This document shows positions 35,753 through 41,401 of a DNA stretch of 64,000 nucleotides, one piece after another. The notes below the pieces were generated by a model that did not search any database, had not been told where the DNA came from, and worked only from the letters and a program-made list of their open reading frames with translations. Origin of the DNA: Streptomyces roseoverticillatus. GTDB taxonomy: Bacteria > Actinomycetota > Actinomycetes > Streptomycetales > Streptomycetaceae. A program made the translations under genes and the position numbers. The stretch covers positions 186,001 to 250,000 of the forward strand of contig NZ_JOFL01000005.1 in NCBI RefSeq assembly GCF_000719265.1. Direction: 5' to 3'. Each line of letters begins with the position of its first letter. The stretch's first letter is position 1.

Positions 35753-36046
35753 CTACCGCCACCGCCGGCCCGGCCCGGCGGAGTCGTCGTCCTCCAAACG
35801 CCGGTCCAGGGCCGCCAGGACCGCCTCGTGCCGGGCCAGGGCCTCGGCCGCGCGTTCCAGGGAGCGGGCGGCCGTCTCGGCCCGGTCCGCGTGGGCGATC
35901 ATCCGCTTGCGCAGCGCAGCGCCCTCCGCCCCCAGCGACGCCACCTCCTCGGCGCTCGACCGCAGCCGGGCCGCCTGCTCCCGCAGCGAGCAGGCCTGTG
36001 CCCGGACGGGCCGCGACCAGGGCGCGTGCTCCGCGCCGCCGCCCAT
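35753..36046 (-). CDS. Small coiled-coil protein, last gene of the dioxygenase operon
   Basis: 97 residues. Residues about 15-85 form one long charged helix with heptad-like spacing (CSLREQAARLRSSAEEVASLG through AARSLERAAEALARHEAVLAALDRRLEDDD), so a coiled coil is likely. The ATG at 36046 overlaps the dioxygenase stop by one base (TGATG), which points to coupled translation and a shared function, for example as a scaffold or partner. No family recognised. Confidence 0.7.
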   Translation of the reverse strand: MGGGAEHAPWSRPVRAQACSLREQAARLRSSAEEVASLGAEGAALRKRMIAHADRAETAARSLERAAEALARHEAVLAALDRRLEDDDSAGPGRRWR

Positions 36047-37821
36047 CACCGGATCCCCCCGGGCCGCAGCATCCGCCAGGGCGCGAACGCGTTGCGCACC
36101 CCCTGCAGGGCCGGGGCCAGCTCCGGGTGGTGGCGCAGGAGCACGTCGGTCATGCCGGTGCGGTCGATCCACTCCATGCCCTCGGGCGTGTAGATCTCGG
36201 GGCGGTAGTCCCGGGTGAAGAAGCGGTCGCTCTTCAGCCGCCGCGAGGCCATCAGGACGAAGAGCCGGAACGCCGTGTCGCTGAACGCGAACCCCCGCGG
36301 CCGCCGCTCGGCGTACATGCCGACCATGGTGTCGACGCGGTCCAGCCGCCCGTCGTAGACCTCGCGCAGCTCGGCGGCGAGCCCCACGTCACCGCCGGTC
36401 AGCTCCTCGAAGCCGGAGACGGGCGGGCGGTGCAGCGCCGCCCGGAAGGCGGTGTAGCGGGGCACGCCCCGCTCGCGGTCGCGCAGCACGTCGACCGCGC
36501 CGACGTCGACGTGCTCGCCGGAGATCCGGAGGAGGTCGCGCAGGCAGTCGGGGTGGTTGTGCAGGGTGATGTCGCCGGGGTTCATGACGCCGAAGGAGTA
36601 CAGCAGGTCGGAGAGGCCGAACTTGTCGACGGCCGGCCGGGTGGCCAGGGCCTGCAGGTCGTCGAAGCCGGTGCGCTCGACGAGCGCGCCCGTGCGGTGC
36701 GAGTGGACGGCGTACTCGTCGCGGATCAGGGGGTGCAGCCGGTACGCGGCGACGAACTCCTCCGTCATCGAGTACGGCGCGGTGTGGTGGTCTGTGGGGG
36801 AGCCGGGGATGCCGAACAGCATCTCGCCCGTGCCGAACCGGCGGACGCTGCGCCGCACCCGCGCGGGCAGGACCCCGTACCAGTTCATGTGCATGGCCGC
36901 CCGCGTGACGGGGTGGGCGACGATCCCGGGGGTCCACTCGACCGTGTGGATCTTGGCCATGACGGCGGCGTTCACGAGCCGGGCCGTCTGGAAGAGCCGT
37001 TCGTCGCCCCAGGTGGGGTGGGCGGCGGCGATCCGGTCGCAGATGGCGTTGTGCTCCTTGGCGAAGAGCGTGTGGAGCAGGGACAGCCCGACCCAGTAGT
37101 TGTCGTTGAAGCCGGTGAGGTCGATGCCGGACAGGCCCGGCGCGGTCTCGTCGGGCAGCCGGCCGTCCGCGAGGGCGAGCTTCCCGCGCTCGCCCGTGCG
37201 CAGGGCGCGGCACCGCTCCTCGCTCGACCCGTAGAGCTGGGAGCCGTCCCACCAGTGGCTGACGGTGTTCTCGTACGTGGGCGGCCGGGTGGTGTCCGTG
37301 CGGGGGACGGGGTCGGGGCGGGAGCGGCGCACGAGCATCGGGCACTGCGGCCAGTCGTCGTCCGCGTCGAGCGGCACGGCGAGCGGCTGGTCGGTCTTGT
37401 TGTCGCCGTGGCTGAACCAGCCGTGGTTCTGGAACTGGATCCAGGCCGCGGCCAGCAGGTTCAGCCCGGTCGCCGGGCGGAAGCCGGAGCGGCGGCGCAG
37501 CAGTTGCCGGCTGACCTCGCGGGGGCTGGGCGAGAGCAGCCCGTCGTCCTCGGGCTCGGGGTAGGTCTCCGGCAGGGGGCAGTTGCGGTCGAAGCGGGTG
37601 CCCGCGCGGCCCATGTCGGCGTCGCCGGGGTCGTAGCCCGAGCCGTCGTAGCTGCGGTGGGGGAGGAGGTCGGCGACGGGCGTGCGGGGGCGCTCCCCGC
37701 CGGCCCCGTAGGTGTCGTACAGGTTGTGCGCCCGCAGCACTTGCCGCTGTCTTCTGAGCTCCAGCAGCGCGAGGGGGAAGGGGAGGTCGTGCCACTCGCG
37801 GCGGCGCGGTACCGGCGTCAT
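36046..37821 (-). CDS. Haem-dependent fatty-acid dioxygenase, alpha-DOX/cyclooxygenase type
   Basis: 591 residues, close to plant alpha-dioxygenases (about 640). The distal region AAWIQFQNHGWFSHGD places Q129 and H133 as in alpha-DOX (Gln-x3-His). The proximal region FVAAYRLHPLIRDEY holds Y360 and H363, matching the catalytic Tyr and haem-ligating His of cyclooxygenase and alpha-DOX. Other shared motifs are DGSQLYGSS, LFAKEHNAICDRI, VNAAVMAKIHTVEWTP and SGFEELTGG. Such enzymes insert O2 into fatty acids to give hydroperoxides. No signal peptide is visible. ATG at 37821 with GGAGAA seven bases upstream. Without structure, a plain haem peroxidase is the alternative. Confidence 0.83.
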   Translation of the reverse strand: MTPVPRRREWHDLPFPLALLELRRQRQVLRAHNLYDTYGAGGERPRTPVADLLPHRSYDGSGYDPGDADMGRAGTRFDRNCPLPETYPEPEDDGLLSPSPREVSRQLLRRRSGFRPATGLNLLAAAWIQFQNHGWFSHGDNKTDQPLAVPLDADDDWPQCPMLVRRSRPDPVPRTDTTRPPTYENTVSHWWDGSQLYGSSEERCRALRTGERGKLALADGRLPDETAPGLSGIDLTGFNDNYWVGLSLLHTLFAKEHNAICDRIAAAHPTWGDERLFQTARLVNAAVMAKIHTVEWTPGIVAHPVTRAAMHMNWYGVLPARVRRSVRRFGTGEMLFGIPGSPTDHHTAPYSMTEEFVAAYRLHPLIRDEYAVHSHRTGALVERTGFDDLQALATRPAVDKFGLSDLLYSFGVMNPGDITLHNHPDCLRDLLRISGEHVDVGAVDVLRDRERGVPRYTAFRAALHRPPVSGFEELTGGDVGLAAELREVYDGRLDRVDTMVGMYAERRPRGFAFSDTAFRLFVLMASRRLKSDRFFTRDYRPEIYTPEGMEWIDRTGMTDVLLRHHPELAPALQGVRNAFAPWRMLRPGGIR

Positions 37822-37902
37822 CGACAGTTCTCCGTGAGGGTTGCAGAGGGTGTGCGGAGAGGGTGGGTGCGGAAGGGGTTCCGGGCGCTCGGGCGCACCG
37901 GC

Positions 37903-39264
37903 CTAGCCGCCGGGGAGGCGGTGGACGACGGTCTTCCCGGCCCGGCCCCGGTAGGGGGCGAGCAGCTCGTCCACCCGGTCGCGGGCCTCGGTGGCGGTCT
38001 TGTCGAGGCTCTGGGCGTACGCCTCCGCGCCGAGGCACTGCGGGACGTCGTAGGAGGGATCCGTCCAGGCGAGCTGCAGCCGGTCCGGGGGCGGGGGCAG
38101 GACCGGGCCGCAGCCCTCCAGACGGGGCATCAGGTCGTGCTCCTCGGCCAGTCCGGCGACGCGGGCGCCGGGCGCGGGCAGTCGCCCGGAGCCGGTGGGG
38201 GAGCCGGCCGTGACGACGAGCTCGACGGCCCGGCCGGTCCGCCCCGGGCCGCCGGCCAGGTGCAGGGCCGTCACTCCGCCCAGGCCGTGTCCGACGAGCG
38301 CCACCGGCATCCCCTCGGGCACCGTCCGGCGGAGGGCGTCGCGGGCGGCCAGGGTGTACGGGGAGGCGCCGTGGCGGAGTGCGGCGACGGCCGCGACCAG
38401 CCCCTCCGGGGAGGCGGTGCGCGGCAGGACGAACTTCGGGCCGGGCAGGAGCACCAGGCACCGGGTGGTGCCGTCCGGGCCCGTGACCTGCTGGGTGAGC
38501 ATCCTGCCGGGGCCAAGGGCGGCCAGGTTGCGCAGGTGGGCGGAGATGCCGCCGCCGTCGTCCGGGCCGTCCGGGAACGCGATCTCCGGCGGCTCTGCGA
38601 AGGGGCGCGCGCCGCGGGACCGGGGGACGGACGGGAGGGCGCTCTCCGTCCGGGTGCCCGTGACGGTGTGCCAGGCCGCCGCGTCGTTGAACGGATTGCC
38701 GTCGGTCAGGGCGTGCCACGCCGTCACCTCCTCCCAGGACGGGGCGAGCGCGGCGAGGGCGTGCCCGGCGCTGCGGACCCGCACCTCTTCCCGGAGGATG
38801 CGCAGGGCCAGGGCGGGGAGGCCCGCTTCGACGGCCACGAGCATGCGCCGGACCGGGCCCTCGGCCCCGTACTCGGCGTGCCGGGTCGCGCACAGCCGGA
38901 TCCGCAGCCGCAGCGCGGTGGCCGCGAGGTCGTCGGCGAGGCTCCCGCGGCGGGCGGCCACGCAGGCCAGCCGGACGGCACGCCCGGCCCGCCCGCCGTC
39001 CGGGGCGTGGCCGAGCCCGGCGGGGTCGGTGAGGCTGTGGGCCAGGGCACCCGCCGCCCGCAGGCCGCGGCGGGGCGAGCGGCCGAGCGAGGCGAGCAGC
39101 GCGGGGTCGCTCGCGACGGCCGTGACCGCCCGTCCCGCCGCCCGGACCGCCCCGGCGGCCTCGGCCAGCTCGCGGGCCACGGCGGTGAGCCGCGCCGCGG
39201 CAGCCGCGTCCTGCGGGCCGGCTCCCGTGGTGCCCCGGGGGCCCGGGGTGCTTGCGGCCGTCAT
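37903..39264 (-). CDS. Class-3-lipase-like alpha/beta-hydrolase with Gly in place of the nucleophile Ser
   Basis: 453 residues. A helical N-terminal half (about 1-235) precedes an alpha/beta-hydrolase region. The nucleophile elbow reads MPVALVGHGLGGVTALHL: the codon at the GxSxG serine position is GGC, so the catalytic Ser is Gly. The Asp/proline region AEEHDLMPRLEGCGPVLP resembles the D-x-VP-x-LP motif of class-3 lipases. The ATG overlaps the P450 stop as ATGA, with GGAGGAG upstream. It may be a non-catalytic binding protein for lipid substrates, or use another nucleophile. Confidence 0.7.
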   Translation of the reverse strand: MTAASTPGPRGTTGAGPQDAAAAARLTAVARELAEAAGAVRAAGRAVTAVASDPALLASLGRSPRRGLRAAGALAHSLTDPAGLGHAPDGGRAGRAVRLACVAARRGSLADDLAATALRLRIRLCATRHAEYGAEGPVRRMLVAVEAGLPALALRILREEVRVRSAGHALAALAPSWEEVTAWHALTDGNPFNDAAAWHTVTGTRTESALPSVPRSRGARPFAEPPEIAFPDGPDDGGGISAHLRNLAALGPGRMLTQQVTGPDGTTRCLVLLPGPKFVLPRTASPEGLVAAVAALRHGASPYTLAARDALRRTVPEGMPVALVGHGLGGVTALHLAGGPGRTGRAVELVVTAGSPTGSGRLPAPGARVAGLAEEHDLMPRLEGCGPVLPPPPDRLQLAWTDPSYDVPQCLGAEAYAQSLDKTATEARDRVDELLAPYRGRAGKTVVHRLPGG

Positions 39265-40712
39265 GCGCCCTCCTCCGGCGTGCGGGACTGCGTGGCCCGG
39301 GCTTCCGCCGTTTCGGCTTCCGTCGTCCGGGGGGCGCGGATCCCGATCCGCAGCCGCGAGGTGTCGAAGGTGTGCGGGAGCGGCCGGCCGGGGCCGAGCC
39401 GGACCCCGGCGACGGCGAGCTCGCCGCCGCGCAGCAGCTCGGCGACGAACCCGGTGGCCAGCTGCAGGGCGAGCTCCATGCCGCTGCACTGGGCCTCGCC
39501 GCGGCTGAACGGGGCGACCGCCCAGTCGCGCTCCGCGGTGCCGTCCAGCCACTTCTCGGGCGCGAACCGGTGCGCGTAGTCGAGGCGTTCGCCGTCGCGG
39601 GCGTGGAAGGCGGCCGGCACGAGGACGTTGACCCCGCCCGGCGCGACCGCGTCCCGCCAGCGGGTCTCGGCCGTTGTCCGGCGCGCGAGGCCCGTGACCG
39701 GGGGCCACAGCCGGGCCGCCTCCTGCACGCAGGCGCGCAGGTAGGGCATGCCGAGGAAGCCGGGGACCGTGCGGGGGCCGTGGGTGCGGTCCGCCGCGCG
39801 GATCTCCTCCATGACGCGCTCGTGGTGGCGCGGGTGCGTGGCGAGCAGGGCGAGCGTCTGCACCGTCACCGCGGTCAGCGCGCCCAGAGCCATGAACCAG
39901 TGGCTGACCTGGCACTCCGGAGCGGTCTCGGGGCCCCGGGGCGCGGCCGCGAACAACCCGGCCAGGCTGCGCGGATCCGCTTCGTACAGATATCTCGCCT
40001 GGCGCTGCATCATTCTGCGGCGCAGCCGGCGGGTGCGGCCGGCGCGCCAGCGGCGGGCTCCCATCCAGTTGGCCTCGGCGAGGAGTTCGCCCAGCAGCCG
40101 GGAGAACTCCTCGTCGTCGGCGGCCGCCTCGCCCAGGAAGCAGCGCCGCCCCACGCGCTCGAAGCTCTCCCGCAGGGCCTCCGGGCGCAGCCCGGTCACG
40201 GCCTCCGGGCCGAGCAGGGCGGCGGCCTCTTCGCCGGTGACGCGCAGGAAGCGGTCGGCGAGCCGGTGCACCGGGCAACCGGTGTCCAGGACCGCGTCGT
40301 TGAACAGCCGCCGCACGATCCGCTGCCGGCCGTGCGAGGCCACGAGGGCCTCGGGCTGGACGGGCGCGAACCCGCTCACCTTCTCCCAGGTGTCGACCGC
40401 GTAGACCCCGACCGGGCCGGACAGCACCTGCCGGGCGTCGTCGGCGTCGAGCACGAGCAGGGTGGGGCCGGCGGCGCCGCGCACCATGACGGGGCCGCGG
40501 CCGTGCCGCCGCCGCAGCCGGCGCATGGTCTCCGGGGCGCGGCGGGCGGTGTCCGCCCGTGCGACGAGCGCGGCGATCCGGGGCCGGGACCGGAACACGC
40601 CTTTGAGGTAGTTGGGGAGGAAGTAGGTGAGGGTGAGCCGGAGATTCTCTCCCGCGGATGCGGCGGGCAGTGCCGTCCCCCGGCCCGTGCCGACCCCGGG
40701 CGCGATCGTCAT
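39261..40712 (-). CDS. Divergent cytochrome P450, first gene of the dioxygenase operon
   Basis: 483 residues, long for a bacterial class-I P450. The ExxR motif lies in VQEAARLWPPV, and the haem loop PFSRGEAQCSGMELALQ gives C409 (F-x2-G-x3-C-x-G). The expected I-helix acid/threonine pair is unclear: the matching region reads HWFMALGALTAVTVQTLALL, without a standard A/G-G-x-D/E-T. Loss of that pair is known in P450s that rearrange peroxides instead of activating O2 (CYP74, CYP8), which would suit the neighbouring dioxygenase. No ferredoxin is adjacent. ATG at 40712 with GAGG eight bases upstream. Confidence 0.8.
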   Translation of the reverse strand: MTIAPGVGTGRGTALPAASAGENLRLTLTYFLPNYLKGVFRSRPRIAALVARADTARRAPETMRRLRRRHGRGPVMVRGAAGPTLLVLDADDARQVLSGPVGVYAVDTWEKVSGFAPVQPEALVASHGRQRIVRRLFNDAVLDTGCPVHRLADRFLRVTGEEAAALLGPEAVTGLRPEALRESFERVGRRCFLGEAAADDEEFSRLLGELLAEANWMGARRWRAGRTRRLRRRMMQRQARYLYEADPRSLAGLFAAAPRGPETAPECQVSHWFMALGALTAVTVQTLALLATHPRHHERVMEEIRAADRTHGPRTVPGFLGMPYLRACVQEAARLWPPVTGLARRTTAETRWRDAVAPGGVNVLVPAAFHARDGERLDYAHRFAPEKWLDGTAERDWAVAPFSRGEAQCSGMELALQLATGFVAELLRGGELAVAGVRLGPGRPLPHTFDTSRLRIGIRAPRTTEAETAEARATQSRTPEEGA

Positions 40713-40803
40713 GCGTCGGACCTCGTGAGGTTGAAGTGATCAGTGAGAGGGGAGCATTGCCACTTCAGGTCCGGCGGAGTCATCAGGTAGGAAGATCACC
40801 CGA

Positions 40804-40826
40804 GTTTTCATCCCTGGGGGTGAAAA
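40804..40826. promoter_or_regulatory. Inverted repeat upstream of the P450-dioxygenase operon
   Basis: TTTTCATCCC and GGGTGAAAA flank a short loop, an imperfect palindrome about 95 bases upstream of the P450 ATG. It could be an operator or part of the adjoining terminator. Confidence 0.35.
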
Positions 40827-40832
40827 AGGTGA

Positions 40833-40960: not shown

Positions 40961-41401
40961 TCAGCGCCGTGACCTCGCCATCCCCATGCGTGCCAGGGCG
41001 AGGGCCACCAGGCAAGCCACCGCTCCGGCGATGACATTGCTGACGACCGCGGCCGTGATGAACGCGTGACCGGAGACGACCCAGGGCGAAACGATCGTCC
41101 AGGCGCCGAGGCAGAGGGCCGCCCAGCTCATCGCGTGGGTGCGCTCGTAGGCGGGGCCGAAACCGCCGACCAGGCAAGCGAAGGCCGCACCCACGATCAC
41201 ATTGTGGATGGCAAGAGTGGAAGCGCCGCTGAAGCCCACAATCCATGGCGAAGCGGCCAGGTAGACACCGCAGAGGAGGGCGAGTGCCTCGACGGCCTGG
41301 GCGACGGGGGTGCTCGTCGCCACTTCGGAGTGGGCGCGGAGCGCCAGGATGTCCGGGTGCTGGTCTATCCGGGGCGACGTAGGGACGGTCACGTCAGCCA
41401 C
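40961..41401 (-). CDS. SPW-repeat membrane protein
   Basis: 146 residues with four membrane helices in two repeats. The SPW motifs are visible as LAASPWIVGFSG and TIVSPWVVSGH. Function of the family is unknown; it occurs widely in actinobacteria. Start: GTG at 41401 gives MADVTVP but overlaps the AAGAAGG ribosome site; a GTG nine bases in (41392) has that site at ideal spacing and may be the true start. Confidence 0.83.
   Translation of the reverse strand: MADVTVPTSPRIDQHPDILALRAHSEVATSTPVAQAVEALALLCGVYLAASPWIVGFSGASTLAIHNVIVGAAFACLVGGFGPAYERTHAMSWAALCLGAWTIVSPWVVSGHAFITAAVVSNVIAGAVACLVALALARMGMARSRR

Follow-up and report, generated by a model that had tools for sequence, protein, structure and literature searches.

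Bacterial alpha-dioxygenases (alpha-DOXs), among them the cyanobacterial enzymes CalDOX and LepDOX, have so far been known from phylogenetic trees and a few assays and their purpose is open, according to PMC8720084, whose tree already includes actinobacterial members. Pairs in which a peroxidase-cyclooxygenase (COX) type dioxygenase is joined by a cytochrome P450 that possibly acts on its hydroperoxide are described in PMC13049297, namely linoleate diol synthase and COX with prostacyclin or thromboxane synthase, the fungal members (LDS/Ppo) being fusions of a dioxygenase (DOX) and a P450. Here we analyse an operon of four genes in a stretch of 64,000 nucleotides of Streptomyces roseoverticillatus (contig NZ_JOFL01000005.1, positions 186,001 to 250,000; hereafter the window), which contains an alpha-DOX, as in the cyanobacteria, next to a P450, as in the fungal and COX systems. 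It differs from the fungal fusions in that the dioxygenase and the P450 are separate open reading frames, and from both the fungal DOX-P450 and the COX-P450 pairs of PMC13049297, as far as they are described there, in that the dioxygenase is of the alpha-DOX type, the P450 belongs to another family and the predicted oxygenation is at C2. We propose, with a probability of roughly 0.7, that the operon derives by gene loss from an actinomycete cassette for fatty-acid alpha-oxidation, the chemistry being predicted from sequence comparison and the gene content and history of the cassette being well supported by it.

The four genes lie on the minus strand. The first encodes a divergent P450 of 483 aa (39261-40712), the second a lipase-like (alpha/beta-hydrolase-like) protein of 453 aa (37903-39264), the third an alpha-DOX homologue of 591 aa (36046-37821) and the fourth a small helical (coiled-coil-like) protein of 97 aa (35753-36046) with an ATG start, an alternative GTG start being possible at 36049. 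The P450 and lipase-like genes overlap by ATGA (39264-39261) and the DOX and coiled-coil genes by TGATG (36048-36044), as an earlier reading of the DNA from its letters alone (the sequence-only reading) had reported, with 81 bp separating the lipase-like gene from the DOX gene. The small helical protein has no Pfam match; it has orthologues at the same position in 12 other Streptomyces loci, and the loci of Sinosporangium carry a comparable small protein. Immediately upstream of the P450 gene, at 40713-40827 of the same strand, is a leader or promoter region conserved among the cassettes, recognised by alignment with relatives and having the pattern TTCACCC..GGGATGAAAACTCGGGTGATCTTCC..TGATGACTCCGCCGG..GGCAATGCTCCCCTC.

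The dioxygenase matches PF03098 with 326.6 bits (cut-off 25), and its best solved relatives are the plant alpha-DOXs, with E values of 2e-111 (4kvj) and 1e-100 over residues 6-583 of 591, the best match to other peroxidases (7.7e-24) and that to cyclooxygenases (1e-16) being far weaker. We take 4kvj and 4hhr to be the rice and the Arabidopsis enzymes, respectively (the codes are reversed in PMC8720084, and nothing here depends on the order). The window protein has a distal His133, His292, Thr297, Tyr360, a proximal His363 and Arg528, where His292, Thr297 and Arg528 are the equivalents of His311, Thr316 and Arg559 of the plant enzyme, with an offset of 3 from the rice numbering to 4kvj that fits His157, His311, Thr316, Tyr379, His382 and Arg559. 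The roles of His311, Thr316 and Arg559 towards the carboxylate and the alpha-carbon, together with those of the catalytic Tyr and His, are described in PMC8720084. In an alignment of 134 sequences (the window, 12 Streptomyces loci, one Sinosporangium locus and the 120 listed of 7970 database matches) the distal His, the proximal His (equivalent to His382) and the equivalent of His311 are found in all 134, and the equivalents of Thr316, Tyr379 and Arg559 in 133. Judged by full-length similarity to the plant enzymes and by these shared residues, the window protein is an alpha-DOX in which the catalytic residues tested are intact, its activity being predicted; the assignment as a haem dioxygenase of this type in the sequence-only reading is thus borne out. 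It differs from the plant enzymes in being the product of a bacterial gene that stands in an operon with a P450 and a hydrolase and, in relatives, with thiamine diphosphate (ThDP) and flavin adenine dinucleotide (FAD) enzymes.

A second alpha-DOX is present in the genome of the window, where it forms a 957-aa fusion with a catalase-related domain (L003 6869-9742, plus strand, contig C25; Pfam Catalase 3.6e-7; nearest solved structure 3e4w). The fusion resembles that of the catalase-related allene oxide synthase with lipoxygenase, and several Streptomyces of the genus sample considered below likewise have DOX open reading frames that are about 1000 aa long.

To place the operon among its relatives, contigs were scanned with a P450 profile, the 80 top-scoring of 300 confirmed matches were taken as loci with flanks of up to 8 kb, and the partner genes were located in them by tblastn, the coiled coil of the two Sinosporangium loci being found with a Sinosporangium query. 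A DOX is present in 26 of the 80 loci, and all four families of the window occur together in 14, so that the co-occurrence in other genomes on which the sequence-only reading had staked its proposal is found. Twelve of the 19 Streptomyces-type loci (L004-L022) carry all four; among the seven that do not, L004 and L015 are cut by a contig end, and L012, L018, L020, L021 and L022 are without one or more of the genes. In L008-L011, L013, L016 and L019 the order is a six-gene one, i.e., ThDP enzyme, FAD oxidase, P450, hydrolase, DOX and coiled coil. The first five of these families are together in 10 of the 80 loci, namely those seven, the two of Sinosporangium (L023 and L024; Streptosporangiaceae) and that of Nonomuraea soli (L061). 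In Sinosporangium the P450 is followed first by the FAD and ThDP genes on the opposite strand and next by DOX, small protein and hydrolase, the order in Nonomuraea soli is DOX, ThDP, FAD, P450 and hydrolase, and Actinorhabdospora (L025) has ThDP, FAD and P450 with no DOX within 8 kb. In a second Streptomyces lineage (L142-L147) all six loci have the ThDP, FAD, P450 and DOX genes, ordered alike, and five have the hydrolase. That the gene order differs between families argues that selection, and not descent alone, keeps the cassette together. Among the titles and abstract openings listed by our searches of open-licence papers, we found no description of this gene set.

A survey of the genus covered 199 genomes, that of the window among them, and 49 of these have a DOX match of any strength. 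Nine DOX genes are at least 66% identical, and each of the nine has the P450 within a few kb. Six of the nine make up the second lineage (L142-L147), and two others, in the genomes G060 and G018, repeat the loci L005 and L016 and so are not independent of the 80 loci. There are 39 further DOX matches (at most 52% identity, more than 300 bits), and tblastn of the flanks of eight of them detected the partners in none. In a quick tree of the P450s, a DOX neighbour is absent from all 43 rows of one clade and present in 33 of the other 44 rows; the neighbours of the clade without DOX, in those examined, belong to broad families, e.g., short-chain dehydrogenases, at varying places, and are uninformative.

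The two enzymes that the window operon lacks indicate what the full cassette may do. The ThDP enzyme of L016 matches the NCBIfam model of benzoylformate decarboxylase with 664 bits (cut-off 493), and its alignment with solved benzoylformate decarboxylases spans the full length. In the FAD enzyme, which resembles GlcD, the domains FAD_binding_4 and FAD-oxidase_C are present, and D-lactate and D-2-hydroxyglutarate dehydrogenases are among its solved relatives. A 2-hydroxyacid oxidase and a benzoylformate decarboxylase constitute the mandelate-type route, and both enzyme classes are present in the full cassette of the relatives; the cassette differs from that route in that the two are coupled to an alpha-DOX and a P450, and the window operon differs from it in that both genes are missing. 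GlcD-like FAD enzymes take the (R) enantiomer of 2-hydroxy acids. (R)-2-hydroxy acids are among the products of alpha-DOX according to PMC9305512, and from these partners we read the full cassette as alpha-oxidation to the aldehyde shortened by one carbon (Cn-1), in which the P450 would stand between the hydroperoxide and the hydroxy acid.

The sequences upstream of the P450 gene bear on how the two genes were lost. At the window locus the ThDP decarboxylase and FAD oxidase genes, which stand before the P450 in relatives, are both absent, and the leader, which precedes the ThDP gene in L008, L010, L013, L016, L019 and L021, directly precedes the P450. Taken with the opening 12 bases of the P450 gene, the leader is 73-80% identical to the corresponding region of the six relatives over 126-127 aligned bases, the start codon included, and the alignment of the leader with that of L013 scores 64.5, the maximum in 200 mononucleotide shuffles being 7. 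Moreover, the N-terminus of the window P450 reads MTIAPGVGTG, where MTI is similar to the start of the ThDP enzyme (MTTVRA) and APGVGTG is internal to the N-terminus of the L006 P450, whose start lies further upstream. The simplest reading of these sequences is that a deletion of the ThDP and FAD genes placed the P450 on the old ThDP start codon. Beyond the leader and the start, no ThDP remnant was found in the window by tblastn at E 5, a list that is mostly noise. In relatives, ThDP remnants are present as fragments in L007 (E 4e-12) and as an N-terminus in L017 (2e-5), and in L014 and L015 an FAD tail is perhaps retained, the match being weak. On the quick P450 tree L017 sits among intact cassettes in a starred group that is separate from the window clade, so that the ThDP and FAD genes were lost at least twice, the window clade and the L007/L014/L015 clade possibly sharing one loss. 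We also considered that a close orthologue of the decarboxylase had been relocated elsewhere, and rejected it: in the window genome no ThDP match scores better than one of 30% identity, and among the nine genomes of relatives without ThDP at the locus, eight have no ThDP match at E 1e-60 and one (that of L007) has a 45% homologue.

The lipase-like protein was given the step of lipid release in the sequence-only reading, and this part cannot be upheld for the window. The protein reaches Pfam only below the cut-off (Thioesterase, 19.8 of 26.4 bits), its model is of middling quality (predicted local distance difference test, pLDDT, 74.6), and by fold it is closest to alpha/beta hydrolases among the matches, although even the best match is weak (E 0.012). 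From residue 325 it reads GHGLGG in place of GHSxGG, i.e., the nucleophilic Ser is absent; the window protein and its ten best database matches (P0001-P0010) all have GHGxGG together with Tyr or Phe for the His of DPSHDFP, and P0014 has GHG but retains that His. Both Ser and His are kept in 21 of 35 aligned hydrolases, P0030 and P0034 being incomplete in that region. The ratios of nonsynonymous to synonymous substitution rates (dN/dS), taken as plain pairwise values, are 0.50, 0.64 and 0.61 for the lipase-like gene among the window, L005 and L006, compared with 0.14-0.37 for the P450 and 0.19-0.28 for the DOX of the same clade, and in seven other within-lineage pairs the lipase values are 0.22-0.42, near those of the neighbouring genes. 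The window protein is thus probably a pseudo-enzyme under relaxed constraint, for which a non-catalytic role is possible. On the strength of the lost Ser and His and the raised dN/dS we reject an active lipase as the acyl-releasing step in the window, and lipid release by this operon loses its support. The hydrolase of Sinosporangium (L024 14731-16968, plus strand) carries a C-terminal domain like acetoacetate decarboxylase (PF06314, 35.1 bits; cut-off 29.8).

The P450 matches PF00067 with 76.9 bits (cut-off 22.8), its AlphaFold2 model has the P450 fold with a pLDDT of 93.4, and both the FxxGxxxCxG loop of the haem Cys and the ExxR motif are present, so that the divergent P450 of the sequence-only reading is a true member of the family, and one whose relatives repeatedly adjoin an alpha-DOX. 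In the I-helix it has Gly-Ala where O2-activating P450s have a pair of acid and alcohol residues. The acid is absent in all 20 P450s of the window lineage (the window and L004-L022), and at the next position Thr is absent in all 20, with Ser in three. The lack of the pair suggests, and does not prove, that the window P450 works on the hydroperoxide of the DOX. This argument is limited to the window lineage, because the cassette P450s of other lineages carry acid residues: the I-helix Asp is kept in six of six P450s of the second Streptomyces lineage, one of which (L147) also has the Thr, the acid is present in both Sinosporangium P450s, and Asp-Thr is found in seven of ten DOX-plus-P450 loci of other families. 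The best Foldseek match is CYP184A1 of S. avermitilis (7wzl, and 7wzm with oleic acid; TMq 0.68-0.69, 22-23% identity), which differs from the window P450 in having Glu-Thr at the place of Gly-Ala. Structures of CYP74, CYP5A1, CYP8A1 and CYP152 are not among the 50 matches listed by each of Foldseek and VIA, which excludes nothing. It is also noted that the Glu of ExxR, to our knowledge nearly universal among P450s, is replaced by Asp in 10 of the 20 P450s of the window lineage.

Based on these families, the pathway of the full cassette can be described as follows, every reaction and substrate, and any role of the coiled coil, being matters that we infer. The alpha/beta-hydrolase would supply free fatty acid, to which the alpha-DOX would add O2 at C2, forming a (2R)-hydroperoxide. 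This hydroperoxide would pass to the P450, which may reduce, isomerise or dehydrate it or use it as an oxidant. From the (2R)-hydroxy acid the GlcD-like FAD enzyme would produce the 2-oxo acid, from which the benzoylformate-decarboxylase-like ThDP enzyme would release CO2 to leave the Cn-1 aldehyde. In the window, where the decarboxylase and FAD oxidase genes are missing from the locus and the hydrolase is probably inactive, the unit would be reduced to DOX and P450, together with the coiled coil, the acid being supplied elsewhere, and the predicted product is that of the P450 from the 2-hydroperoxy acid, i.e., a 2-hydroxy acid, a 2-oxo acid or an aldehyde. We regard the system as real, conserved and functionally coherent, and as reduced in this strain. 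More tentatively, and at somewhat less than even odds, actinomycetes would have a dedicated route of alpha-oxidation, the 2-hydroperoxide of the partner DOX being acted on directly by a P450 that lacks the machinery of O2 activation, and in the window lineage this route would have been cut to a pair with an end product of its own; by analogy, the pair would then be a bacterial two-gene counterpart, acting at C2, of COX with prostacyclin synthase and of the fungal DOX-P450 enzymes.

By contrast, in the sequence-only reading the operon is a candidate oxylipin pathway after the plant and fungal logic; in such a pathway the lipase would free an acyl chain, a COX-type dioxygenase would oxygenate it and the P450 would rearrange the hydroperoxide to a signal. 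The adjacency of DOX and P450 in many genomes and the GHSxGG retained by the hydrolases of sister loci are consistent with this, and the sequence of hydroperoxide formation followed by a P450 is reasonable; the lipase step fails in the window, the dioxygenase is of the alpha-DOX type by its full-length match, with oxygenation predicted at C2, and the partners in relatives belong to the 2-hydroxyacid oxidase and 2-oxoacid decarboxylase families. As the relatives add the ThDP and GlcD-like FAD enzymes, we favour alpha-oxidation over oxylipins of the jasmonate or Ppo type, and consider the pathway as first proposed to be very unlikely. If, instead, the P450 were an ordinary fatty-acid hydroxylase, dependent on O2 and a reductase, that acts on the substrate or product of the DOX without using its hydroperoxide, the likeness to CYP184A1, solved with oleic acid, and the acid residues kept in the second Streptomyces lineage and in most loci of other families would be expected; the loss of both I-helix residues throughout the window lineage would not be, and we consider this explanation somewhat unlikely for the window. 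Another question is the substrate, which may be an aryl- or branched acid, e.g., an arylacetic acid converted to a mandelate-type and then a benzoylformate-type acid, rather than a straight fatty acid. The homology of the ThDP enzyme to benzoylformate decarboxylase along its whole length would fit such an acid as well, and the retained residues by which alpha-DOX binds the fatty-acid carboxylate speak against it only weakly because other carboxylates would bind too; we consider it unlikely. Finally, the window locus may merely be decaying and without function: two of its genes are gone and one is apparently dead, and the relatives L020 and L022 have lost still more, keeping only the P450 of the six cassette genes. 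On the other side, the P450 and the DOX are intact, with dN/dS below that of the hydrolase in the same clade, and the cassette leader is retained, so that we regard simple decay as highly improbable.

Several points also weigh against the shortened alpha-oxidation cassette itself. The P450 and DOX occur without the other genes in 11 of the 80 loci, one being L018 and the other ten belonging to Nonomuraea, Nocardioides, Nocardiaceae, Mycobacterium, Solirubrobacterales and other actinomycetes, some on short contigs, which implies that the FAD and ThDP steps are not obligatory; and of the 15 places of the P450 in the genus survey at E 1e-60, nine are near a DOX and six are not. The hydroperoxides of alpha-DOX can decarboxylate unaided, as stated in PMC9305512, and the extra enzymes would therefore need a reason. 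The cassette FAD enzyme stays below the cut-off of GlcD (406.7 of 567.9 bits). A GlcD homologue of 60% identity is encoded on another contig of the window genome, so that the capacity for oxidation may have been retained. The strict leader pattern is found in eight of 27 Streptomyces loci and in none of the six of L142-L147, so that the leader belongs to the window lineage, and the relaxed constraint on the hydrolase is read from the pairwise ratios given above. Lastly, the Asp that follows the distal His is a calcium ligand in related peroxidases, and at this position 66 of the 134 aligned DOX sequences have Asp and 68, including that of the window, which here differs from the plant enzymes, have Gly.

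With the proposed cassette, a recurring gene set becomes a concrete pathway with predictable substrate, intermediates and stereochemistry, the steps of which can be deleted in one operon. As the decarboxylase and the oxidase were lost in more than one lineage with the DOX and the P450 kept, the pair is the likely functional core. The pair is also a new candidate couple of P450 and hydroperoxide that could be used in enzymology and in the production of Cn-1 aldehydes or 2-hydroxy acids.

Several neighbouring genes are also noted. A gene for an SPW-repeat protein lies just upstream of the cassette on the same strand (window 40961-41401), and all but one of the 19 Streptomyces-type loci have a homologue, the position of which was read in L005, L013 and L016. 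In Nocardioides, Nocardiaceae and an uncultured actinobacterium the DOX-P450 pair is adjoined by a gene for a conserved protein, about 220 aa long (L051 5911-6561, minus strand; L053 7273-7941, L065 7288-7956 and L071 5470-6114, plus strand), with no Pfam match in the two checked (L051 and L053). The gene that follows the 957-aa fusion (L003 9905-12913, plus strand) encodes, behind a long N-terminal extension without Pfam match, a LodA/GoxA-like cysteine tryptophylquinone (CTQ) amino-acid oxidase.

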